Assembly: GCA_016187725.1 (NCBI GenBank) | Contig: JACPJE010000012.1 | Location: 1 to 64,000, forward strand | Direction of reading: 5' to 3' | DNA from: Candidatus Latescibacterota bacterium | Lineage (GTDB): Bacteria > Latescibacterota > UBA2968 > UBA8231 | Length of the DNA: 64,000 nucleotides | Made by a program: the position numbers and the translations under genes | Part shown: in pieces, positions 480 through 11,485 of the stretch | How positions within the stretch are numbered: the stretch's first letter is position 1 | Layout: the number at the start of each line of letters is the position of its first letter | The notes under the pieces: model-generated | Told to the model about the DNA's origin: nothing | Seen by the model: only the letters and a program-made list of their open reading frames with translations | Database searches by the model: none

Positions 480-2546
480 ATGCGGGGAATGCCTGCCAGA
501 TCCCTCCAGGAAAGGTTCTCGCCGGCCCTTTGGACAGCCCTGAGCAGCCTGTTGCTGACCCTGCCCTCTGCAGCCCAGGTGAATGTCTGGAAGTTGGGCG
601 GCAGTGGCCTGGCGTGGGACCAGAGCGATACAGCGCAGGTGCTGATCGAATTCCATACTGGGGCTAACGCCATCCAGCCCATTTATCTCACCCCGGACCG
701 CAGTATCCTCTCCTTCCTGTCGGATTGGTCTGACCTCAAGGTCCCGCGCGAACTGGGCTATGTGGACGGCCACCGCCCGCGTATCTGGGCCGGACAAGGG
801 TTGAACAGATCCGCCGCCTGGAGCGGTCTGAATCTAGTCGATGGCGACCGGAGCACCTATAATGCCACAAACTCCTGGGGGGCAGGATCTTGGCTTACTA
901 TCGACCTGGGGGTGCCGGTGCCGGGCATGCGTTTCGGCTTCCTGCCGCCTTCTGCCGGCTTCCGATCCGATGGCCGGCCCCTGAGTCAGGACTTTGTGCC
1001 CGCCTACGAGGTCTCCCTCTCCGCAGAGGTTGATCCGGTCCTGCAGGAAGAAGACTACCGCCCTCTCTCCACCTTGGTCGCTGCTGTCCAGGACAACTTC
1101 GACCCGCAGGTAGAGATCGAATTCTCCAGACAGTATGTGCGCTTCATCCGCTACCTGCGCAAATCCTCTATCCTGGATCAGGGCGGCAACTCCACCGGCA
1201 GTTGGGGCGGCCAGGCCATACAAGGGACGATCGCTGAGTTCACCCTCTATGGAGAAGGGGCTCCCAGGCGGGTATTCTATGCGGGCAAGATCGCTGATCT
1301 GGGCCAGGAGGTGAATTTCGGCCGCCTGTTCTGGGCAACCACCCCCATGAGGAGAGTGGAAGAGAGCGCCGTGGAGGCGCCAGAGGCGACGGCAGTGGCA
1401 GTGGAGTTGCGCTGCGGCCTGGATGAAGATCCTGAAGTGTACCACGAGTTCACAGACGCGGGCGCTGAGCGGGTGGTCTCGCGGGAGCGGTATGAAAGGC
1501 TAGAGGGTCTAGAATATGGCTGGGACAATCCAGACGGCGCCTGGCACCTGGTGCTTGAGGAAGGCAAGCCTGGCCGGCGCGCCTCGGTGGGCTACGACAC
1601 CGAGAACTGGACCTTCTGGTCGCCCTCCCAGACCCAATCCGGGATGCAGGCCCCGCTCCAGCGCGGCCGTTACCTGCAGGTCCACCTCACCCTGGAGAGC
1701 CAGGACCCCGAGGAACTCGTCCGGCTCGACTCGCTGTGGCTCGAATACACCCCCCTCCTGGCCCGCCGCATCACCGGAGAGCTGGCCCGCCTGGACGATC
1801 TTGTTCCTGATCGGGGAGTAGTGCGGAACAGGCTCGGGGAGTTGACGGATTTTGTATATGATGTACAGGCCCACTTCGATGCTCCAGACCAGCCGGGATT
1901 CGATGCCCTGCGCCTGGATACCCCTGCCCCGGCCCGCTTCCAGCGCCTGCTGATCGGAGAGCCGCTGATAGAGGTCGCACCTTCAAAGGTCCGCGTGGAG
2001 GCCGACGACCTGCTGGTAGTGCTGCCTGAGAGGATAACCCCAGCACACAACCCGCCCATCCGCCTAGTCTTCAGCGCGCGGATATTCACCCTCGCCTACA
2101 CCTTCACCGGCAGAGCTGTGGACCTAGAGGGCCGCGCCTTTCCCCAGGCCCTAGAGGCCGGGGATGTTTCGCAGGCGCTGGGGACCAATACCCTGCAGGT
2201 GATGGGAGAGGGTGAGGTAGAGACAGGGTTCATCCAGGACCTCGTATTTTCCTCTCCTGCCTTCACTCCTAATGGGGACGGGATCAACGATGGGCTGGCC
2301 ATCCGCTATACCCTGTTCCGCCTCCCTCAGGAGGTGCCTGTGGAGTTGAGCATCTATACCCTGAGCGGGCAAGGGGTGGCCCACTTCGAGCTGGGCTACC
2401 AGGCTGCCGGCCCGCAGGAGGTGTTCTGGGATGGACAGGGCGAAGCAGGCGAGCCGGTAACGCCAGGTCTCTACCTGGTGGAAGTACGTCTCAGGGCCGA
2501 GACCGGAAACTTTCGCCAGATCCGCCCCGTGGGGGTGGTCAGGTAG
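480..2546 (+). CDS. Secreted discoidin-like protein with C-terminal FlgD/CHU_C-type module
   Basis: 688 residues. I chose the ATG at 480, not the track start at 159, because it is followed by a signal peptide (a short charged segment, a Leu/Ala-rich core and a PSAAQ-type cleavage region). Residues about 70-290 look like one or two galactose-binding/discoidin folds: WLTIDLG is typical, as are several Trp/Tyr-rich strands. The C-terminal 100 residues carry FTPNGDGIND, the hallmark of gliding-motility-type C-terminal/FlgD-Ig modules, and end in a beta-rich tail. The protein is a paralog of 34780-37101, with the same order of domains and a shared LEYT...R.I.GE segment. The sequence implies export and an adhesive or carbohydrate-binding surface role; no enzymatic motif is visible. 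The downstream gene starts 7 bp after the stop, suggesting co-transcription. Confidence 0.8.
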   Translation: MRGMPARSLQERFSPALWTALSSLLLTLPSAAQVNVWKLGGSGLAWDQSDTAQVLIEFHTGANAIQPIYLTPDRSILSFLSDWSDLKVPRELGYVDGHRPRIWAGQGLNRSAAWSGLNLVDGDRSTYNATNSWGAGSWLTIDLGVPVPGMRFGFLPPSAGFRSDGRPLSQDFVPAYEVSLSAEVDPVLQEEDYRPLSTLVAAVQDNFDPQVEIEFSRQYVRFIRYLRKSSILDQGGNSTGSWGGQAIQGTIAEFTLYGEGAPRRVFYAGKIADLGQEVNFGRLFWATTPMRRVEESAVEAPEATAVAVELRCGLDEDPEVYHEFTDAGAERVVSRERYERLEGLEYGWDNPDGAWHLVLEEGKPGRRASVGYDTENWTFWSPSQTQSGMQAPLQRGRYLQVHLTLESQDPEELVRLDSLWLEYTPLLARRITGELARLDDLVPDRGVVRNRLGELTDFVYDVQAHFDAPDQPGFDALRLDTPAPARFQRLLIGEPLIEVAPSKVRVEADDLLVVLPERITPAHNPPIRLVFSARIFTLAYTFTGRAVDLEGRAFPQALEAGDVSQALGTNTLQVMGEGEVETGFIQDLVFSSPAFTPNGDGINDGLAIRYTLFRLPQEVPVELSIYTLSGQGVAHFELGYQAAGPQEVFWDGQGEAGEPVTPGLYLVEVRLRAETGNFRQIRPVGVVR

Positions 2547-2553
2547 ACAGGCT

Positions 2554-5032
2554 ATGAACGAGACTCCCGCAGAGACGGGCTCTGAGTTCCGCACGGATGC
2601 CATGAAATCCTATGCCCGGCTGGGCCTCTGGGCGCCGGCAGAACGGATGGCCGAATTCGAGGCCGCGTACGAGAAGAAGATCGCGCCTCTCTTGGAAAAG
2701 CACGGGCTGGTGGAATCCACCGAGCGTGGGCGCAAGATCGTGGCAGGGGTATTCAGCCGGCTCTTCGAGCTGGAGAGGCCGGCTGCGGTGGTGGCCAGGG
2801 GGCAGGCCCTCCAGAAAGACCCGGCGTGGCAGAAGGTGTTGCGGGAATTGGGGACGGCATTCGGGGTAGAGGATGGTCTGCTGCGCTGGCATTGGGGGAC
2901 CTATGCGGCGCCGGCGGGTAGGGGTAAGGTGGTGGAAGCAGGTTCGGGGTCCCGGCAGGGGCTGTGGCAGAGTTTCAATGTCCACGATGGATTCCCAGCA
3001 TCGACCGTATCGGCGATCCTGCGGGATCGGCAGGGGCATTTGTGGTTTGCCTTGACTCGGGAAGAGGGGTGGGGGGTGTGCCGGTACGATGGGGCAGAGT
3101 TCATCACCTTCACCACTGCGGACGGTCTGGCGCACGATGCGGTGCGCTGCATGGTTGAAGACCGGCAGGGCAACCTGTGGTTCGGGACCATCGGGGGTGG
3201 GGTGAGTCGGTATGATGGGCAGAAATTTGTGACCTTCACGCGGGCCGATGGCCTGGCACACGACGCGGTGCAGTCCATGATCGAGGACCGGGCTGGCAAC
3301 CTGTGGTTCGGCACGGGCTCGGATTGGTTGAGAGGTGAGGGGGTGAGCCGGTACGACGGGGCAAAATTTACCACGTTCACTACCGCGGACGGTCTGCTAG
3401 GTAATAATGTCCTGTGCATAGTCGTAGACCGACAGGGCCACCTGTGGTTCGGGACCCCGGAGGGTGTGAACCGGTACGACGGGCAGAGGTTTGTGAGCTT
3501 CACGCGGACCGATGGCCTGGCACCCTGCGAGGTGCGTTCCGCGATCGAGAACCAGCAAGGGCACCTGTGGTTCGGCACGTACGGCGGGGGGGTGAGCCGG
3601 TACGACGGCAAGAGCTTCAAGAACTTCACCCCTGCCGATGGCCTGGCCTCTACCCTGGTGCTGTCCATCGCAGAGGACCAGACGGGCAACCTGTGGTTCG
3701 GGACGTTGGGTGGGGGGGTGAGCCGGTACGACCAGGCGCAGTTTGCCCACTTCACCCAACAGGACGGCCTGGGGAGCAGCGCGGTCATATCGATCGAGAA
3801 AGATCGCCAAGGCTGTCTGTGGTTCGGGACGGCCACCGGGGGCGCGAGTCGGTACGATGGACAGGACTTTACCACCTTTACCAACGCAGAGGGCCTGCCC
3901 GAACGGTTCGGATGGATATGGGCCATTGTGGAGGATCGCCAAGGGCACCTGTGGTTTGGCACTGAGGGAGGGGGGGTGAGCCGGTACGACGGGAAGGAGT
4001 TCACTACCTTCACTAAGGCGGAAGGGCTGGCAGGGCAGTACGTGCGGGCCATTCTGGAGAGCAGAGATGGCCATCTGTGGTTTGGCACCTGGAGCAGGGG
4101 CGTGAGTCGCTACGACGGGCGGGAGTTCACCACCTTCACCACTGCAGAGGGCCTGGCCGGACAGTTTGTATGGACCATTGTGGAGGATCGCCAAGGGCAC
4201 CTGTGGTTCGGGACTAATAGCGGTGTGAGTCGCTACGACGGGCATGAGTTCACCACCTTCACCACCGCCGATGGCCTAGCGCACAATGACGTGCCCTCTA
4301 TCTTGGAGGACCGGGAAGGTCATCTGTGGTTTGGCACGAATGGCGGGGGGGTGAGCTGGTATGACGGGAAAGGGTTCACCACCTTCACCACCGCAGAGGG
4401 CCTGGGGGAGAATGTGGTGCTGTCCATCGCAGAGGACCGGGAAGGGCGGTTGTGGTTCGGCACCTTTGGTGGGGGGGCGAGTGTGTACGATGGGCGGATC
4501 TTCCAGAGCCTGTCCAGAAAGGACGGCCTGATCAACGACACGGTCCAGCAGGTCTTCCTGGACGAACAAGGCGATCTCTGGTTCGCCACTAATGGCGGGG
4601 TCACGCGCTATCGACCGCTTCAGGAACCACCGCGTATCCGCCTCACCGATGTGGTCGCCGACCGCCACCACGGTCCAGTCCAGGAGGTCCGTCTGGCCAG
4701 TGCCCCAGATCACTCCTGCGGCGCTGGTGCAATTGCAGAGCTACTCCTGGCCGGGGAATGTGCGGGAGCTGGAGCATCTGATGCAGCGGGCTGTGCTGCT
4801 GTGCAGGAACAACCGTATCGAGGCGGGAGATGTAGCCCTGCAGGTAGAGGTCCGGTCAGAGGAAGGTCTGCTCACCCTGGCTGAGCAGGAGAAGCGGCTG
4901 ATCGAGCGGGCCCTGGAAGCCACGGGCGGAGTGATCTTCGGCGAGCAGGGGGCAGCACGGCTCTTGGGCATCAATCCCCAGACCCTCAGATACCGCATCA
5001 AAAAGCACGGCATCCATAAGCCCCAGTCCTGA
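2554..5032 (+). pseudogene. Broken propeller-sensor / sigma54-activator fusion
   Basis: The 5' part (frame of 2554) has an N-terminal domain of about 145 residues and then 13 two-component-regulator propeller repeats of about 42 residues, each with LWFGT and (V)SRYDG. It reaches the start of the usual post-propeller (Y_Y_Y-type) domain near LTDVVADRHHGPVQ. Near 4700-4712 the frame jumps by one. The new frame encodes the extreme C-terminus of an NtrC-type activator: SWPGNVRELEHLMQRAVLL followed by a Fis-type helix-turn-helix ending at 5032. The rest of the post-propeller domain and nearly all of the AAA+ ATPase (Walker A, GAFTGA) are missing. An intact relative would sense a ligand through the propeller and activate sigma54-RNA polymerase. 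As written, the product is a propeller with a nonsense tail. It is either a true deletion or an assembly error. Confidence 0.8.
3000..4617 (+). repeat. Tandem repeats of about 126 bp encoding propeller blades
   Basis: Thirteen direct copies of a unit of about 126 bp. Each carries a CACCTGTGGTTCGG-like core (LWFG) and a GTGAGCCGGTACGACGG-like core (VSRYDG). They are coding repeats, not an array of spacers, because the reading frame is preserved throughout. Confidence 0.85.
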
Positions 5033-5262: not shown

Positions 5263-5278
5263 CGGCACACCCCTTGCA
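5263..5278 (+). promoter_or_regulatory. Sigma54-type -24/-12 promoter of the metalloprotease gene
   Basis: CGGCACACCCCTTGCA matches the TGGCAC-N5-TTGCA consensus at most positions, with the invariant GG (5264-5265) and GC (5276-5277) exactly 10 bp apart. The expected transcript start is near 5289, leaving a leader of about 78 nt before the ATG at 5367. Confidence 0.7.
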
Positions 5279-5319
5279 ATAAGGAGGTAGAGCGCGATGT
5301 AACCCTGGCCACCACGCGC

Positions 5320-5335
5320 TTCGCGGCGCCGCGAA
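5320..5335. repeat. Perfect 16-bp GC palindrome in the 5' leader
   Basis: TTCGCGGCGCCGCGAA reads the same on both strands. It falls within the leader predicted from the sigma54 promoter, about 30 bp before the start codon. It could be a protein-binding site or a short RNA hairpin. Confidence 0.4.
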
Positions 5336-5366
5336 AAGGTCACCACCTCACGCAGGGAGTCTACCC

Positions 5367-7448
5367 ATGCGTACGGCTGGCTTTTTCGCAGGCGCTCTGT
5401 GCGTCTTTTCAACGGCTCTCCACGCCGAAATCTTCTCCTGTGCCGGCCATGCAGTGGTCCCCTCTGGAGCAGCCCCCCTCGCCACTCAAGCCGAGCTGAT
5501 GCCCACCAAAGGCCAGGTGCATGCCCTGGTCATCTTCGCCCAGTTCGCTGACGAAACGCCGAGCCCGGTCCCCGACTTCGCAGACCGCCTGTTCGACCCG
5601 GATCTCCCCGGCAGCTTTGCCCACTTCTACCACACCATGTCCTTTGACCAGCTCCAGATCACCGGCACCGTGCTGCCCAGGCGTTACACCTCGGACCAGT
5701 CCTCCTCCGCCTACCTGAGCCAGGCCCCTGGTGAGCAAGACCGCTATGGGACCTTCGCCCTGAAGATCCTCAAGCAGGTGGATGCAGACATCGACTTCGG
5801 TCTGTTCGACAACGACGGGCCGGATGGGGTCCCCAATTCCGGCGACGACGACGGGGTTGCAGACTATGTTTTCATCAATGTGTCCTATGCCCCGGATGGT
5901 TTCGTCCTGGGCGGGGCCACTGGCATCGCCGGCCTGGGGTTTGAGGCAGAGTACCTCTCCGCAGACACCTCGCTCAGCGGACAGCCCATCCGTCTCAGCG
6001 GCGCCATCGGCCATGGCGCCTTTCTGCAGGAGGGCACCTTTTCCCAGACCGTGGGCAGCATGGCCCATGAGTTCGGCCACAGCCTGGGCCTGCCCGATCT
6101 GTACGACCTGGTTTACACAGGGCCAGAGGACGACAGCGCCGGCATCGGCAACTGGGGCCTGATGGGTTGGGGTGCCCACGGCTGGCACGGCGACGATGGC
6201 CCCAATCCCCTGTGCGCCTGGAGCCGCGAGATGCTGGGCTGGATCGGCCCTGACAACGAGCAACTGGTGGAGGTCCAGGGGGATGCGGCAGGGTTGGAGA
6301 TCCTGGACCTGCACCAGCAGGGCTTCGTCTACAAAGTCCCCCTGTCTGTCCGCTCAGACGCGCAGCAGGTCTACGTGCAGGACTACCTGCTCCTGGAACA
6401 CCGGACCCGCCACAGCCATTACTACAACCGGCACCTGCCTGCCGAGGGTCTGCTCGTCTGGCACATCCACCCCACCCGCGAGAACAACAATGGCGAAGGG
6501 CACAAGCTGGTGGACCTGATCTGCGCCGACGCTAGTGCCTCTGGCGAGGGCCGCGACGGGCTGGATCTCTGGGCGCACGACGAAAAGGACGCCCGCGCCG
6601 GCAATAAGGGGGATGCCACCGATCCCTTCGACAGCGTGCGCTTCACGGACCTGGCACTGGAGGCGAATCCTGCTGCTGCAACCACCGGGTTGGCTATCCG
6701 CCAGATCCGGCGGCAGGGAGATGCCCTGCGCCTGGACATCCTCCAACCCCGCTGGGCCGGCACCCTGCGCGGGGAGATCTTCTGGACCGGCGAGGTGATT
6801 GTGGAGGGAGACCTGACCATTGCCCGAGAAGGCCTGCTGATCATCTATCCCAATACCCGGGTGCGCATTGCGGGTGTGGATCGCCTGAAAAGCGGCCTGG
6901 ACCCGACCCGCTGCGAACTGCGCATCCAGGGAGAGATGCGGGGCTATTCCGGTGCTAGCTATCCGTATCAGTCCCACTACAGCAGGTGCTCTCTGAGGGA
7001 CATGGAGACCAATCCAGCGGTCTTTGAAGCACAGGTGCCGGGAGAGGAGTGGTACGGCTTTCGCCTGGAAGGATCGGGTCAGATCAGCGCACCCGAAGGG
7101 AGCTTCGTGCTCCGGGATATGGATTTCGCACTGCCCCAGGCAGCGCCGGCAGAGGATAAGCCCCGGCCTGCGGGGTTTCAACTCCTGCCCAACTTCCCTA
7201 ACCCCTTCAACAGCGAGACCATCATCCGCTTCTCCCTGCCGGCTGCCGCTGTTGTCGAGCTGGCCATCTACAACTCAGCCGGCCAAAGGGTGGCCACCCT
7301 GGTCTCAGGTCTGCAGCGGGCCCGTCTCCACACTGCGCGCTGGGATGGCCGCGACGACCAGGGGCAGCTCCTGGCCAGCGGACTCTATCTGTGTTCCCTG
7401 CGCACCGGCCAGCAGGTCGAGACGCGCAAGCTGCTGCTGGTGCGCTGA
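5367..7448 (+). CDS. Secreted M6-family metalloprotease with FlgD-like C-terminal module
   Basis: 693 residues with a signal peptide ending near TALHA. The catalytic zinc motif HEFGHSLGLPDLYD lies at about residues 232-245, as in M6 (immune-inhibitor-A-like) peptidases, followed by GLMGWGAHG, the Met-turn region. The N-terminal part also has Asp-rich, Ca-binding-looking segments (DNDGPDGVPNSGDDDG). The last 90 residues hold PNFPNPFN and a beta-sandwich ending in KLLLVR, the FlgD-Ig/T9SS-type C-terminal module seen in other secreted proteins here. The start is supported by GGGAG 8 bp upstream and by the signal peptide. The gene is monocistronic: it has its own sigma54-type promoter and converges on the next gene with a 2-bp gap. 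It is probably a secreted or surface endopeptidase. Confidence 0.88.
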   Translation: MRTAGFFAGALCVFSTALHAEIFSCAGHAVVPSGAAPLATQAELMPTKGQVHALVIFAQFADETPSPVPDFADRLFDPDLPGSFAHFYHTMSFDQLQITGTVLPRRYTSDQSSSAYLSQAPGEQDRYGTFALKILKQVDADIDFGLFDNDGPDGVPNSGDDDGVADYVFINVSYAPDGFVLGGATGIAGLGFEAEYLSADTSLSGQPIRLSGAIGHGAFLQEGTFSQTVGSMAHEFGHSLGLPDLYDLVYTGPEDDSAGIGNWGLMGWGAHGWHGDDGPNPLCAWSREMLGWIGPDNEQLVEVQGDAAGLEILDLHQQGFVYKVPLSVRSDAQQVYVQDYLLLEHRTRHSHYYNRHLPAEGLLVWHIHPTRENNNGEGHKLVDLICADASASGEGRDGLDLWAHDEKDARAGNKGDATDPFDSVRFTDLALEANPAAATTGLAIRQIRRQGDALRLDILQPRWAGTLRGEIFWTGEVIVEGDLTIAREGLLIIYPNTRVRIAGVDRLKSGLDPTRCELRIQGEMRGYSGASYPYQSHYSRCSLRDMETNPAVFEAQVPGEEWYGFRLEGSGQISAPEGSFVLRDMDFALPQAAPAEDKPRPAGFQLLPNFPNPFNSETIIRFSLPAAAVVELAIYNSAGQRVATLVSGLQRARLHTARWDGRDDQGQLLASGLYLCSLRTGQQVETRKLLLVR

Positions 7449-8714: not shown

Positions 8715-8882
8715 GAGCCCCTAACAGAATGGAATTCGTCGGCCAAAGCGCGAGCGAGGGACGCAAGGGCAAGGCATCCGAAGAAGGTGTATCTGTGGAG
8801 CAAGATACACCGACTGAGGATAACGCCGTCCATTGCGGCTCGCAGCCGCGCGACGCCAGAAGGTCATTTTGTTAGCGGCTCC
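8715..8882. repeat. 168-bp imperfect palindromic element (REP/MITE-like)
   Basis: The ends GAGCCCCTAACAGAATG and, inverted, GAGCCGCTAACAAAATG match at 15 of 17 positions. Weaker inverted similarity continues to the exact centre, which is a perfect 9-bp stem (GGTGTATCT / AGATACACC) with an 8-nt loop. The element fills the gap between the racemase-like gene and glnD and creates the spurious 5' extension of the racemase ORF. No transposase gene is nearby, so it is probably a non-autonomous element. Confidence 0.6.
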
Positions 8883-11485
8883 TAGGTATCCAGCCGCTCC
8901 AGGAGCTGCTGGCGTATCCTCTCCATCACTTCGTAGTTGACGATCTTCTGGCCGCGCCCATCCACCACGTAGAAGGCGTCGGTGGCCCGGTCGGCCACGG
9001 TGTTGATCAACGCGGTGTGGATGTCGAGTTCCTGCTCGCTGAGCACCTGGGTGATCTTGTAGAGCAGGCCCACCCGGTCCTGGGCGTCCACCTCGACCAC
9101 GGTATAGCGATCCGAAACCTGGTTCTCGAACTTCAGCTCGGGCGGGCGCAGGTGGTCCTCGCCCTTGCGGGCGCGCCAGTTCCAATTGGCGCTGTACTGC
9201 CCGAAGAGCTGATCCTCCTCTATCGCCCCGCCGATGACCTGGGCCAGTTGCTCCCCCACCCGCTGCTGCTTGCGCTGGGGCAGGACCGGGCCGCCGTCCA
9301 CGTCGGTCACCTGGAAGGTGTCCAGCACCACGGCGTCGGCGCGGGTATTGACCTGGGCGCGCAGGATGTCGATGTCGTTGACCGCCAGCACCGCGCAGAT
9401 CTTGGCCAGCAGGTGGCGCTGGTCCCGGGTGCAGATGGCCAGCTCGGTATAGGCCGGCCTCTCGGCGAACTCCAGCGCCAGCGGCTGCCCCTCCAAGTCC
9501 TCGATCAGGCCCAGGTGGGCCTCGATCTGGTCGCGGTTATAGGCCATCAGGTAACGGGAAGGCAGCTGCTGCACGTGGGCCTGGAAGGCGGCCACCTTGT
9601 GGGCCGGCCAGGTGCCGGTGATGAAGCGCAGGTGCATCTCGAGCAACTGGCGGACGTGGTGCTGCTCCTCCAGGGTCTTCAGCCCGGACTCGATCTGCTC
9701 CCGGGTCTTGTGATACAGGTCCCAGAGCAGGGCCCCCTGCCAGTCGGTCCAGGCGTCGCGGGCCACAGCGGACAGGTCGGCATAGGAGATCAGGTACAGG
9801 GCCTCCAGCCAACTGATATTGGCGAAGAGCCCGGCGAACTCGGCGATCATCCGGTAGTCGTCCAGATCGCGGCGCTGGGAGATGATCACCATGTCCTGGT
9901 GGTGCTCCACCAGAAAGAGCACGAAGCGCCGATCCTCGCGGGGCAGCTCAATCCGCTCCAGCAGCTGGCCGGCCATCTCCAGCCCGCAGACAATGTGGTC
10001 CTCCCGCCTGGACTTGCCGATGTCGTGCAGCAGCACGCCCAGGTAGAGCAGCTCGCGGCGCGGGAAGGCAGAGAAGAGGTGGTTGAGGGGCCGCTGCTCG
10101 GCCTCGCGGCCCAGAGATTCCAGATTATCCAGGGCCACCAGCACGTGTTCGTCCACGGTGTAGAGGTGGTAGATATCGTACTGCACCAGGCAGGTGAGCG
10201 CCCCGAACTCGGGCAGGTACGCCCCCAGCACCCCCAGCTGGTGCATGGCCCGCAGGGTGCGGGAGGCGCACTGCCGGCGCTTGAGGATGGCCATGAAGAG
10301 GTCGCGGGCTTCGGGCGAGCGCCGCACCTGGTCGTCGATCAGATGCAGGGAGGCGCGGATGGCGCGCTGGGCCTGTTCGCTGAGGCGCAGCCTGCGGGTC
10401 TGCAGGAGGGAGAAAAGGCGCAGCAGGCGCAGGGGCTCGGCGGCGAAATAGGCCTCGCCCTCCCGCAATTCGATCTTCTCATTCACCACCTCCACCCCTT
10501 CTTCCAGCAGCAGCCGCCGGCCTTCGCGCTCCCGGCTGGTCAGTTGCTCAAAGGCGCGCTCCACCAGGTTGTACACCGCCCGCGCGTGGAGGTAGTACTG
10601 TTGCATGAACTGCTCCACCGCCAGTTCCCTGCCCCGGTCCTCGTACCCGAAGCGGCGGGCGATCTGGGGCTTGAGGGCGTGCTCCAGCACGTCGTGACGC
10701 CGGCCCACTTCGAAGTGCAATTCGTGGCGCACCCGCCAGAGGAACTCGCGGCCTCGGGCCAGGGCGGCGCTTTCTTCGGCGTCCAGCAGACGCTGCCGCC
10801 ACGACTCCACCTCGGGCCCGCCGGCTTTGGCCTTGAGCGCCCATTCGAGCACCTGGAGATCGCGCAGCCCGCCGGGGCTCTCCTTGAGATTGGGTTCGAG
10901 CAGTTGCACCGAACCGCCGGCCTGGCTGCGGGCCTGATGCCACTGGCGCAGCCCGGCCACCGTCTGGCGGGGGAGCTTGGCGTAGAGCCGCTGCTGGAAC
11001 TGGGCGAAGAGGTCGGGATCGCCGGCCAGCAGACGGCCATCCATCATCGCGGTGCGGGCGTCCAGCTCCTGGTGGGACATCTCCACCACCTCGGCCAGGG
11101 TGCGGCTGCTGTGGCCCACCTCGAAACCCAGATCCCACAGCGGCCGCAGCGCCCCGGAGATGAAGCCGGCCTGTTTGTCTCTGGCCTTGGGAAAGAGGAA
11201 GAGCAGGTCCACGTCCGAGTACGGACTCATCTCCTGGCGCCCGTACCCCCCCAGGGCCACCAGGGCATGGGAGCCCTGGGGAGCCGGGGCTCCGGCGCAG
11301 ATTTCGAGCACCAGGGCATCCATGCCCTCGGCCAGGGCGCGGGCCGTCTCCAGGCCGCCGGCCCCCTGCTGGTGGGCCTGTCTGAGGTGCTCCAGCTGCC
11401 CCTTCCAGAAAGCCTGCCTTATTTTGGCTAGCGACCTGCCTCCCTCTGCAGCCAGCGCGGCGCGCAGCTCTTCCCTGGCCTTCAT
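8882..11485 (-). CDS. glnD: [Protein-PII] uridylyltransferase/uridylyl-removing enzyme
   Basis: 867 residues, close to the usual GlnD length. The nucleotidyltransferase signature GGYGRQEMSPYSDVDLLFLF lies at about residues 75-95, the HD hydrolase motif HDIGKSRRED near 487, and two C-terminal ACT domains that bind glutamine lie at about 690-760 and 795-867. The enzyme uridylylates PII proteins when glutamine is low and removes UMP when it is high, linking nitrogen status to ammonium assimilation. Its ATG overlaps the lon stop codon by 4 bp, so it is translated from the lon transcript. No amtB, glnK or glnA is present in the window. Confidence 0.95.
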   Translation of the reverse strand: MKAREELRAALAAEGGRSLAKIRQAFWKGQLEHLRQAHQQGAGGLETARALAEGMDALVLEICAGAPAPQGSHALVALGGYGRQEMSPYSDVDLLFLFPKARDKQAGFISGALRPLWDLGFEVGHSSRTLAEVVEMSHQELDARTAMMDGRLLAGDPDLFAQFQQRLYAKLPRQTVAGLRQWHQARSQAGGSVQLLEPNLKESPGGLRDLQVLEWALKAKAGGPEVESWRQRLLDAEESAALARGREFLWRVRHELHFEVGRRHDVLEHALKPQIARRFGYEDRGRELAVEQFMQQYYLHARAVYNLVERAFEQLTSREREGRRLLLEEGVEVVNEKIELREGEAYFAAEPLRLLRLFSLLQTRRLRLSEQAQRAIRASLHLIDDQVRRSPEARDLFMAILKRRQCASRTLRAMHQLGVLGAYLPEFGALTCLVQYDIYHLYTVDEHVLVALDNLESLGREAEQRPLNHLFSAFPRRELLYLGVLLHDIGKSRREDHIVCGLEMAGQLLERIELPREDRRFVLFLVEHHQDMVIISQRRDLDDYRMIAEFAGLFANISWLEALYLISYADLSAVARDAWTDWQGALLWDLYHKTREQIESGLKTLEEQHHVRQLLEMHLRFITGTWPAHKVAAFQAHVQQLPSRYLMAYNRDQIEAHLGLIEDLEGQPLALEFAERPAYTELAICTRDQRHLLAKICAVLAVNDIDILRAQVNTRADAVVLDTFQVTDVDGGPVLPQRKQQRVGEQLAQVIGGAIEEDQLFGQYSANWNWRARKGEDHLRPPELKFENQVSDRYTVVEVDAQDRVGLLYKITQVLSEQELDIHTALINTVADRATDAFYVVDGRGQKIVNYEVMERIRQQLLERLDT

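Follow-up and report, generated by a model that had tools for sequence, protein, structure and literature searches.

A probable pseudogene of a propeller/Y_Y_Y sigma54 activator family in a Latescibacterota genome

The regulator locus

The window analysed here, a stretch of 64,000 nucleotides of Candidatus Latescibacterota DNA, is part of contig C286 of a draft MAG (5.56 Mb, 292 contigs, 89% complete, 5.4% contamination). It contains a damaged regulator gene, a candidate enhancer and sigma54 promoter, and a gene for a peptidase (Table 1). The first reading frame of the regulator has 13 LWF[GA] blade motifs by motif scan, the number of propeller blades given in an earlier note on this DNA. A second ORF, 4592–5032, overlaps the first in another frame and has Pfam matches to AAA_lid_14 (1.3e-14) and HTH_8 (7.3e-13) – the end of an AAA+ domain and the Fis helix-turn-helix that the same note had described. 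The Fis-type DNA-binding domain is present, out of frame with the sensor, and the AAA+ core (Walker A, Walker B, GAFTGA) is absent from the window copy, both by Pfam and by alignment to its closest paralogue, on contig C115. With these predicted domains the window copy cannot work as a sigma54 activator. The true start of the regulator is likely 2602 and not 2554, because the paralogues begin there.

Table 1. Coordinates of features at the regulator locus of the window
Feature	Position	Strand	Basis and remarks
Damaged regulator ORF	2554..4884	+	776 aa; Reg_prop E=1.7e-81; last ~63 codons after 4695 out of frame
N-terminal domain, predicted NIPSNAP-like alpha/beta fold	2602..2919	+	alignment with 9 paralogues; structure model
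13 Reg_prop beta-propeller blade repeats	2960..4625	+	profile and motif matches
Deletion junction, out of frame	4694..4695	+	~880 bp missing relative to C115
3' remnant, different frame	4695..5032	+	AAA+ lid end ~4697-4855; Fis helix-turn-helix ~4874-5008
Candidate enhancer (UAS), dyad TTGTCAATA-N17-TATTGACAA	5033..5067	+	9-bp dyad; 196 bp upstream of -24 element
Candidate sigma54 -24/-12 promoter CGGCACACCCCTTGCA	5263..5278	+	site scoring
Presumed target: M6 (immune inhibitor A-type) peptidase, FlgD_ig C-terminal domain	5367..7448	+	693 aa; Pfam; paralogue in same position on C115

Two other genes of the window lie near this locus. A secreted-type protein with a FlgD_ig/CHU_C C-terminus is encoded at 501–2546 (+); the gene stops 7 bp short of the regulator ORF, and the two possibly form one operon. 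A GlnD-type PII uridylyltransferase with HD and ACT domains is encoded at 8882–11485 (-).

The earlier note had attributed the change of frame to a single base near 4700–4712. The break is instead at 4694/4695, and the alignment shows that a stretch of ca. 880 bp (3n+1) in C115 (L099), 1065–1944, has no counterpart in the window. Y_Y_Y is encoded in the missing stretch, as is almost the whole AAA+ domain with its Walker A and Walker B motifs and GAFTGA loop, so the same note was right that the ATPase is gone. Past the junction, the window and C115 share 95% identity in the 110 residues/codons of the tail. The exact left breakpoint had to be inferred, because C115 is damaged in its own propeller and is close to the window in its 3' part only. 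The absence of ca. 880 bp rules out a one-base frameshift, and a programmed frameshift is ruled out because the re-joined product would still be without the whole ATPase.

Intact members of the family

Direct fusion of a propeller to an NtrC-type activator, which the earlier note had suggested would make a one-component sigma54 system, exists as intact genes both in this genome and in its class. The search for full-length copies (propeller, Y_Y_Y, AAA+, Fis) that the note had proposed found at least seven intact single-ORF copies in the window genome. Reg_prop repeats, Y_Y_Y, Sigma54_activat, AAA_lid_14 and HTH_8 were matched by Pfam within single ORFs of C56, C105, C216, C22 and C82 (two). 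C144 has all of the family domains except a listed HTH_8 match, C158 runs into a contig end, and others are also cut by contig ends. The HTH_8 match is weak (~1e-4) or under the reporting limit in some copies, e.g. C144 and L127. The intact single-ORF proteins are ca. 1050–1195 aa long.

The Walker A motif of intact members is GETGTGKG. Among 47 sequences, the sigma54-contact loop was GAFTGA in 20, GAFTSA in 18 and GSFTGA in three, and the loop threonine was missing (GAFASA, GAFANA, or loop lost) in 5 of 44 tested relatives. With Sigma54_activat, Walker A, a GAFTGA-type loop and a C-terminal Fis-type HTH, the intact paralogues have the features of sigma54 enhancer-binding proteins. Input and output are in one chain with no kinase or receiver found by Pfam, which makes each a one-component system.

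To count the fusion across genomes, a profile (A1) spanning the boundary between Y_Y_Y and AAA+ was used at E 1e-40. Of 47 genomes analysed for the class, 26 have the fusion, that of the window being one of them; the 17 genomes analysed from the phylum's other classes have none. Named matches in Cloacimonadota (L129), Acanthopleuribacter (L204) and Bryobacteraceae (L192) were rejected as members – these are propeller histidine kinases, not sigma54 fusions. In the open-licence PMC literature, no paper was found that describes the propeller/Y_Y_Y-sigma54 architecture, in this phylum or elsewhere.

Age of the probable deletion and other broken copies

Over the 110 codons after the junction, the window and C115 differ with a dN of 0.027 and a dS of 0.53 (dN/dS 0.05). 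The downstream peptidase pair has a dS of 0.55 and a dN/dS of 0.32. These rates argue that the regulator-peptidase pair was duplicated long ago and then held under selection, and that the deletion would be recent, or else an assembly error.

If it were an assembly error, the gene would be intact in the organism, and the contig would either join two paralogues or skip ca. 880 bp. In favour of this, the assembly is a draft, the copies on C115, C263, C245 and C20 are likewise broken at sharp joins, and the tail still shows strong purifying selection. However, the two 100-bp flanks of the junction share no word of 6 bp or more, and therefore offer no graph-merging reason for a chimera; the tail and the downstream gene are continuous, with the type of synteny found on C115; and in G029, a closed genome, one copy has likewise suffered an internal deletion that puts its halves out of frame. 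An error of this kind is unlikely. The broken copy in G029 has lost residues 545–721, and its halves (4088222–4089868 and 4089865–4090896) are in different frames. The same genome has nine intact copies and small remnants with stops.

The two frames could also be functional apart, as a 776-aa propeller-only protein and a separately started Fis-type peptide that would be a decoy or repressor at the dyad. Each is stop-free in its own frame, and the low dN/dS of the tail and the retention of the adjoining dyad would fit such a role, but the low ratio is accounted for just as well if the deletion is recent. The tail ORF begins inside the blades, in the other frame, with neither a start of its own nor a domain boundary, and its sole close homologue in the genome, on C115, belongs to a longer AAA+ ORF. 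Nor are these two separate intact genes, an outcome that the earlier note had allowed for, as both halves align to one continuous paralogue protein. We consider it very improbable that the halves work separately. The best joint explanation, and in our judgment a likely one, is that the gene in the window belongs to a family of one-protein sigma54 activators and became a pseudogene recently.

Other broken copies in the window genome are found on C30 (in frame, with Walker A lost), C245, C263, C20 and C115 (two). The C115 copy related to that of the window has a nearly identical HTH and an intact AAA+ domain, with a frameshift in the propeller. A 472-bp block occurs twice on this 7.6-kb contig, at 737–1208 and 6573–7044, in two broken propeller genes. 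The copies of the block are 96% identical, have sharp edges, and extend from the last blades to mid Y_Y_Y; the second continues into an unrelated secreted-protein tail (FlgD_ig-like).

Candidate sigma54 promoters, dyads and presumed target genes

The dyad, the promoter and the peptidase gene of the window all have counterparts in C115, where the dyad is kept and has an extra half-site. Taken by itself, the window dyad has a p of ~0.05 relative to shuffles. Only two sites of the quality of that at 5263–5278, itself included, occur on both strands of the 64 kb. Sites like CGGCACACCCCTTGCA are found in C115 and at three loci of same-genus genomes. There is one rpoN match in the window genome.

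Promoters were scanned next to 44 eligible regulators from seven genomes and the named record L127, with random segment pairs from the same loci as controls. Sites had to score at least 16.2 of 17.7, using weights devised for this analysis from the published consensus, and to lie no more than 420 bp downstream in the same direction or divergently upstream. A near-consensus -24/-12 site was found within 420 bp of 24 of the 44 regulators, compared to 36 of 2219 control pairs (1.6%). The usual position is 160–320 bp past the regulator stop codon, and sites are 29-fold denser in the 100–400 bp flanks of regulators. The bulk of the signal comes from genera other than that of the window: an adjacent site is present for 8/9 regulators in G029, 5/6 in G036 and 4/6 in G033, and for 3/16 in the window's genus (G000 3/10, G002 0/3, G004 0/3). 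None of the five copies without the loop threonine had an adjacent site, versus 24 of the 39 others (p=0.014, for copies that are not independent). In most cases, the dyad in the interval between regulator and promoter exceeds shuffled sequence, as expected for an enhancer. The domain order, the loss in the window copy, the promoter neighbourhood and the dyads can be read directly from the DNA, and the promoter neighbourhood suggests that intact paralogues may activate the -24/-12 promoter in an ATP-dependent manner.

The adjacent promoters may instead obey other activators, while the propeller protein governs distant genes. Consistent with this, one dyad (GAGCCAATC...GATTGGCTC) is common to several G029 promoters, suggesting a common activator, and adjacent promoters are a minority in the window's own genus. 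However, promoters are strongly enriched beside the regulators, the five copies without the loop threonine have none, and apart from the shared G029 motif the dyads differ from locus to locus. Control by other activators is a rather doubtful alternative to local control by the neighbouring regulator.

The shared dyad, GAGCCAATC(C)GACTAT-N12-16-ATAGTCAGATTGGCTC, is found ca. 55–60 bp upstream of the -24 element at several sigma54 promoters in G029, G018 and G033 (L230, L232-L234, L238, L252). Its recurrence at these promoters suggests a common activator. Tandem regulator pairs are found at L244 and L250. The loop of the upstream copy is GAFASA/GAFANA, without the threonine, and no sigma54 site adjoins this copy; its downstream partner combines a normal-type loop with a perfect site.

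In the window, 5264–5399 contains the promoter and a leader, AAGGAGG-N9-ATGTAA, with the palindrome TTCGCGGCGCCGCGAA. This arrangement recurs in L208, L209 and L212, from same-genus genomes, before similar signal peptides (MRTxGFFAGxL), and the promoter and leader are possibly a shared sigma54 leader element. Across the genus, the strict leader pattern turned up in the window, on C115 and at a single G004 site, and nowhere else. The leader hairpin recurs within the genus; the AUG-UAA is not kept in L209. A conserved 5' leader hairpin with an AUG-UAA behind a Shine-Dalgarno sequence was rejected for this reason and because the fold was no better than shuffles (z 0.01).

The genes behind the family promoters encode LRR, fn3, cadherin, Calx-beta, FlgD_ig, multicopper oxidase, FGE-sulfatase and peptidase proteins, most of which have an N-terminal signal-like sequence and are predicted to be secreted. 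In or near the window's genus, the genes behind these promoters also include those of small STAS proteins. Small proteins of 88–96 aa are encoded behind sigma54 sites near intact regulators in L226 (4834–5097), L127 (9703–9969) and L220 (5804–6091); those of L226 and L127 match STAS, and the one in L220 is similar-looking with no Pfam match.

Location and structure of the sensor

The earlier note had described the sensor as extracellular-type, which the family does not bear out. None of 49 regulator ORFs has a predicted transmembrane segment in a Kyte-Doolittle scan, the sole method used. Y_Y_Y and AAA+ are separated by only ca. 20–30 residues, and the propeller kinase on C116 has a transmembrane segment at that place. 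Because the intact members have no predicted membrane segment, their propeller is probably cytoplasmic.

The N-terminal domain of the window protein, modelled with a pLDDT of 85, also speaks against the extracellular description. NIPSNAP or NIPSNAP-like proteins make up its 15 best PDB matches (best E 3.8e-5, TM score about 0.62), and no Pfam profile, NIPSNAP included, matches its sequence. A TPR identity, the only match by sequence to solved structures, was rejected as spurious. The model of a relative, L127, has a mean pLDDT of 65, with propellers mostly at 80–90 and a poor AAA+ part. The best PDB match of its propeller part is the BT4663 periplasmic sensor (4a2m/4a2l), with an E of 5e-41.

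Relation to known systems and proposed mechanism

Sensors made of a propeller and Y_Y_Y are known chiefly from the periplasm, where they sense glycans and work through a kinase. In the Bacteroides hybrid two-component systems (BT4663-type; PDB 4a2m, 4a2l), the Reg_prop and Y_Y_Y sensor unit is the same as in the family described here. Unlike those systems, the family has no predicted transmembrane segment and no histidine kinase (HisKA/HATPase), receiver or AraC domain; its sensor is probably cytoplasmic, and its output is a sigma54 AAA+ domain.

Activators of the one-component sigma54 type that have a PAS or GAF input domain are already known, for example in Desulfovibrio vulgaris, in which the regulator gene is beside its own sigma54 promoter in 10 of 13 cases (PMC4641369). 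The family resembles these activators in having the input, a GAFTGA-type AAA+ domain and a Fis HTH in one chain, with the gene beside the promoter, but its input is a beta-propeller array and Y_Y_Y of ca. 700 residues. As the one-component sigma54 class is already known, the new part is a propeller/Y_Y_Y input without a predicted membrane segment. Transmembrane transcription regulators are also one-component, and Y_Y_Y is common in them (7.7%, PMC10269533); the family differs in having no predicted transmembrane segment and in having a sigma54 AAA+ domain.

The window genome also encodes pairs, side by side, of a propeller histidine kinase and a receiver-sigma54 regulator (C238, C116). The fused family has the same type of sensor and the same type of output as these pairs, but omits the kinase and receiver, between which a phosphorelay connects the two proteins. 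The presence of the two-protein version in the same genome suggests how the fusion could have arisen.

The proposed signal for intact members is a ligand or partner protein in the cytoplasm that would bind the propeller; Y_Y_Y would pass the change straight to the AAA+ ring, with no kinase and no phosphorelay. The Fis domains would keep the ring on a dyad enhancer roughly 50–200 bp upstream, and ATP hydrolysis would open the sigma54 holoenzyme at the neighbouring promoter. Each regulator would activate a single gene of its own, in most cases one for a predicted secreted protein. In the window, this role would fall to the M6-type peptidase gene; its promoter and dyad survive, and the adjacent activator appears to be dead.

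We lean, by a modest degree, toward the view that cytoplasmic propeller/Y_Y_Y sigma54 activators form a class-wide family, of which some members have a NIPSNAP-like N-terminal domain. Each of its many members would be a one-component switch dedicated to a neighbouring gene for a secreted protein and connected to that gene through a separate dyad and -24/-12 promoter. Such a family would be a kinase-free, intracellular reuse of the polysaccharide-sensor fold, with regulator-target pairs gained and lost fast.

If it is fused, in intact and soluble proteins, to a sigma54 AAA+ motor, the same sensor would be able to drive transcription directly from the cytoplasm. Since the regulator, enhancer, promoter and target are neighbours on the DNA, the system lends itself to direct tests in a laboratory host. 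Working and broken copies of the family also make up a natural series for comparing what becomes of the target promoter when the motor or the sigma54-contact residue is lost.
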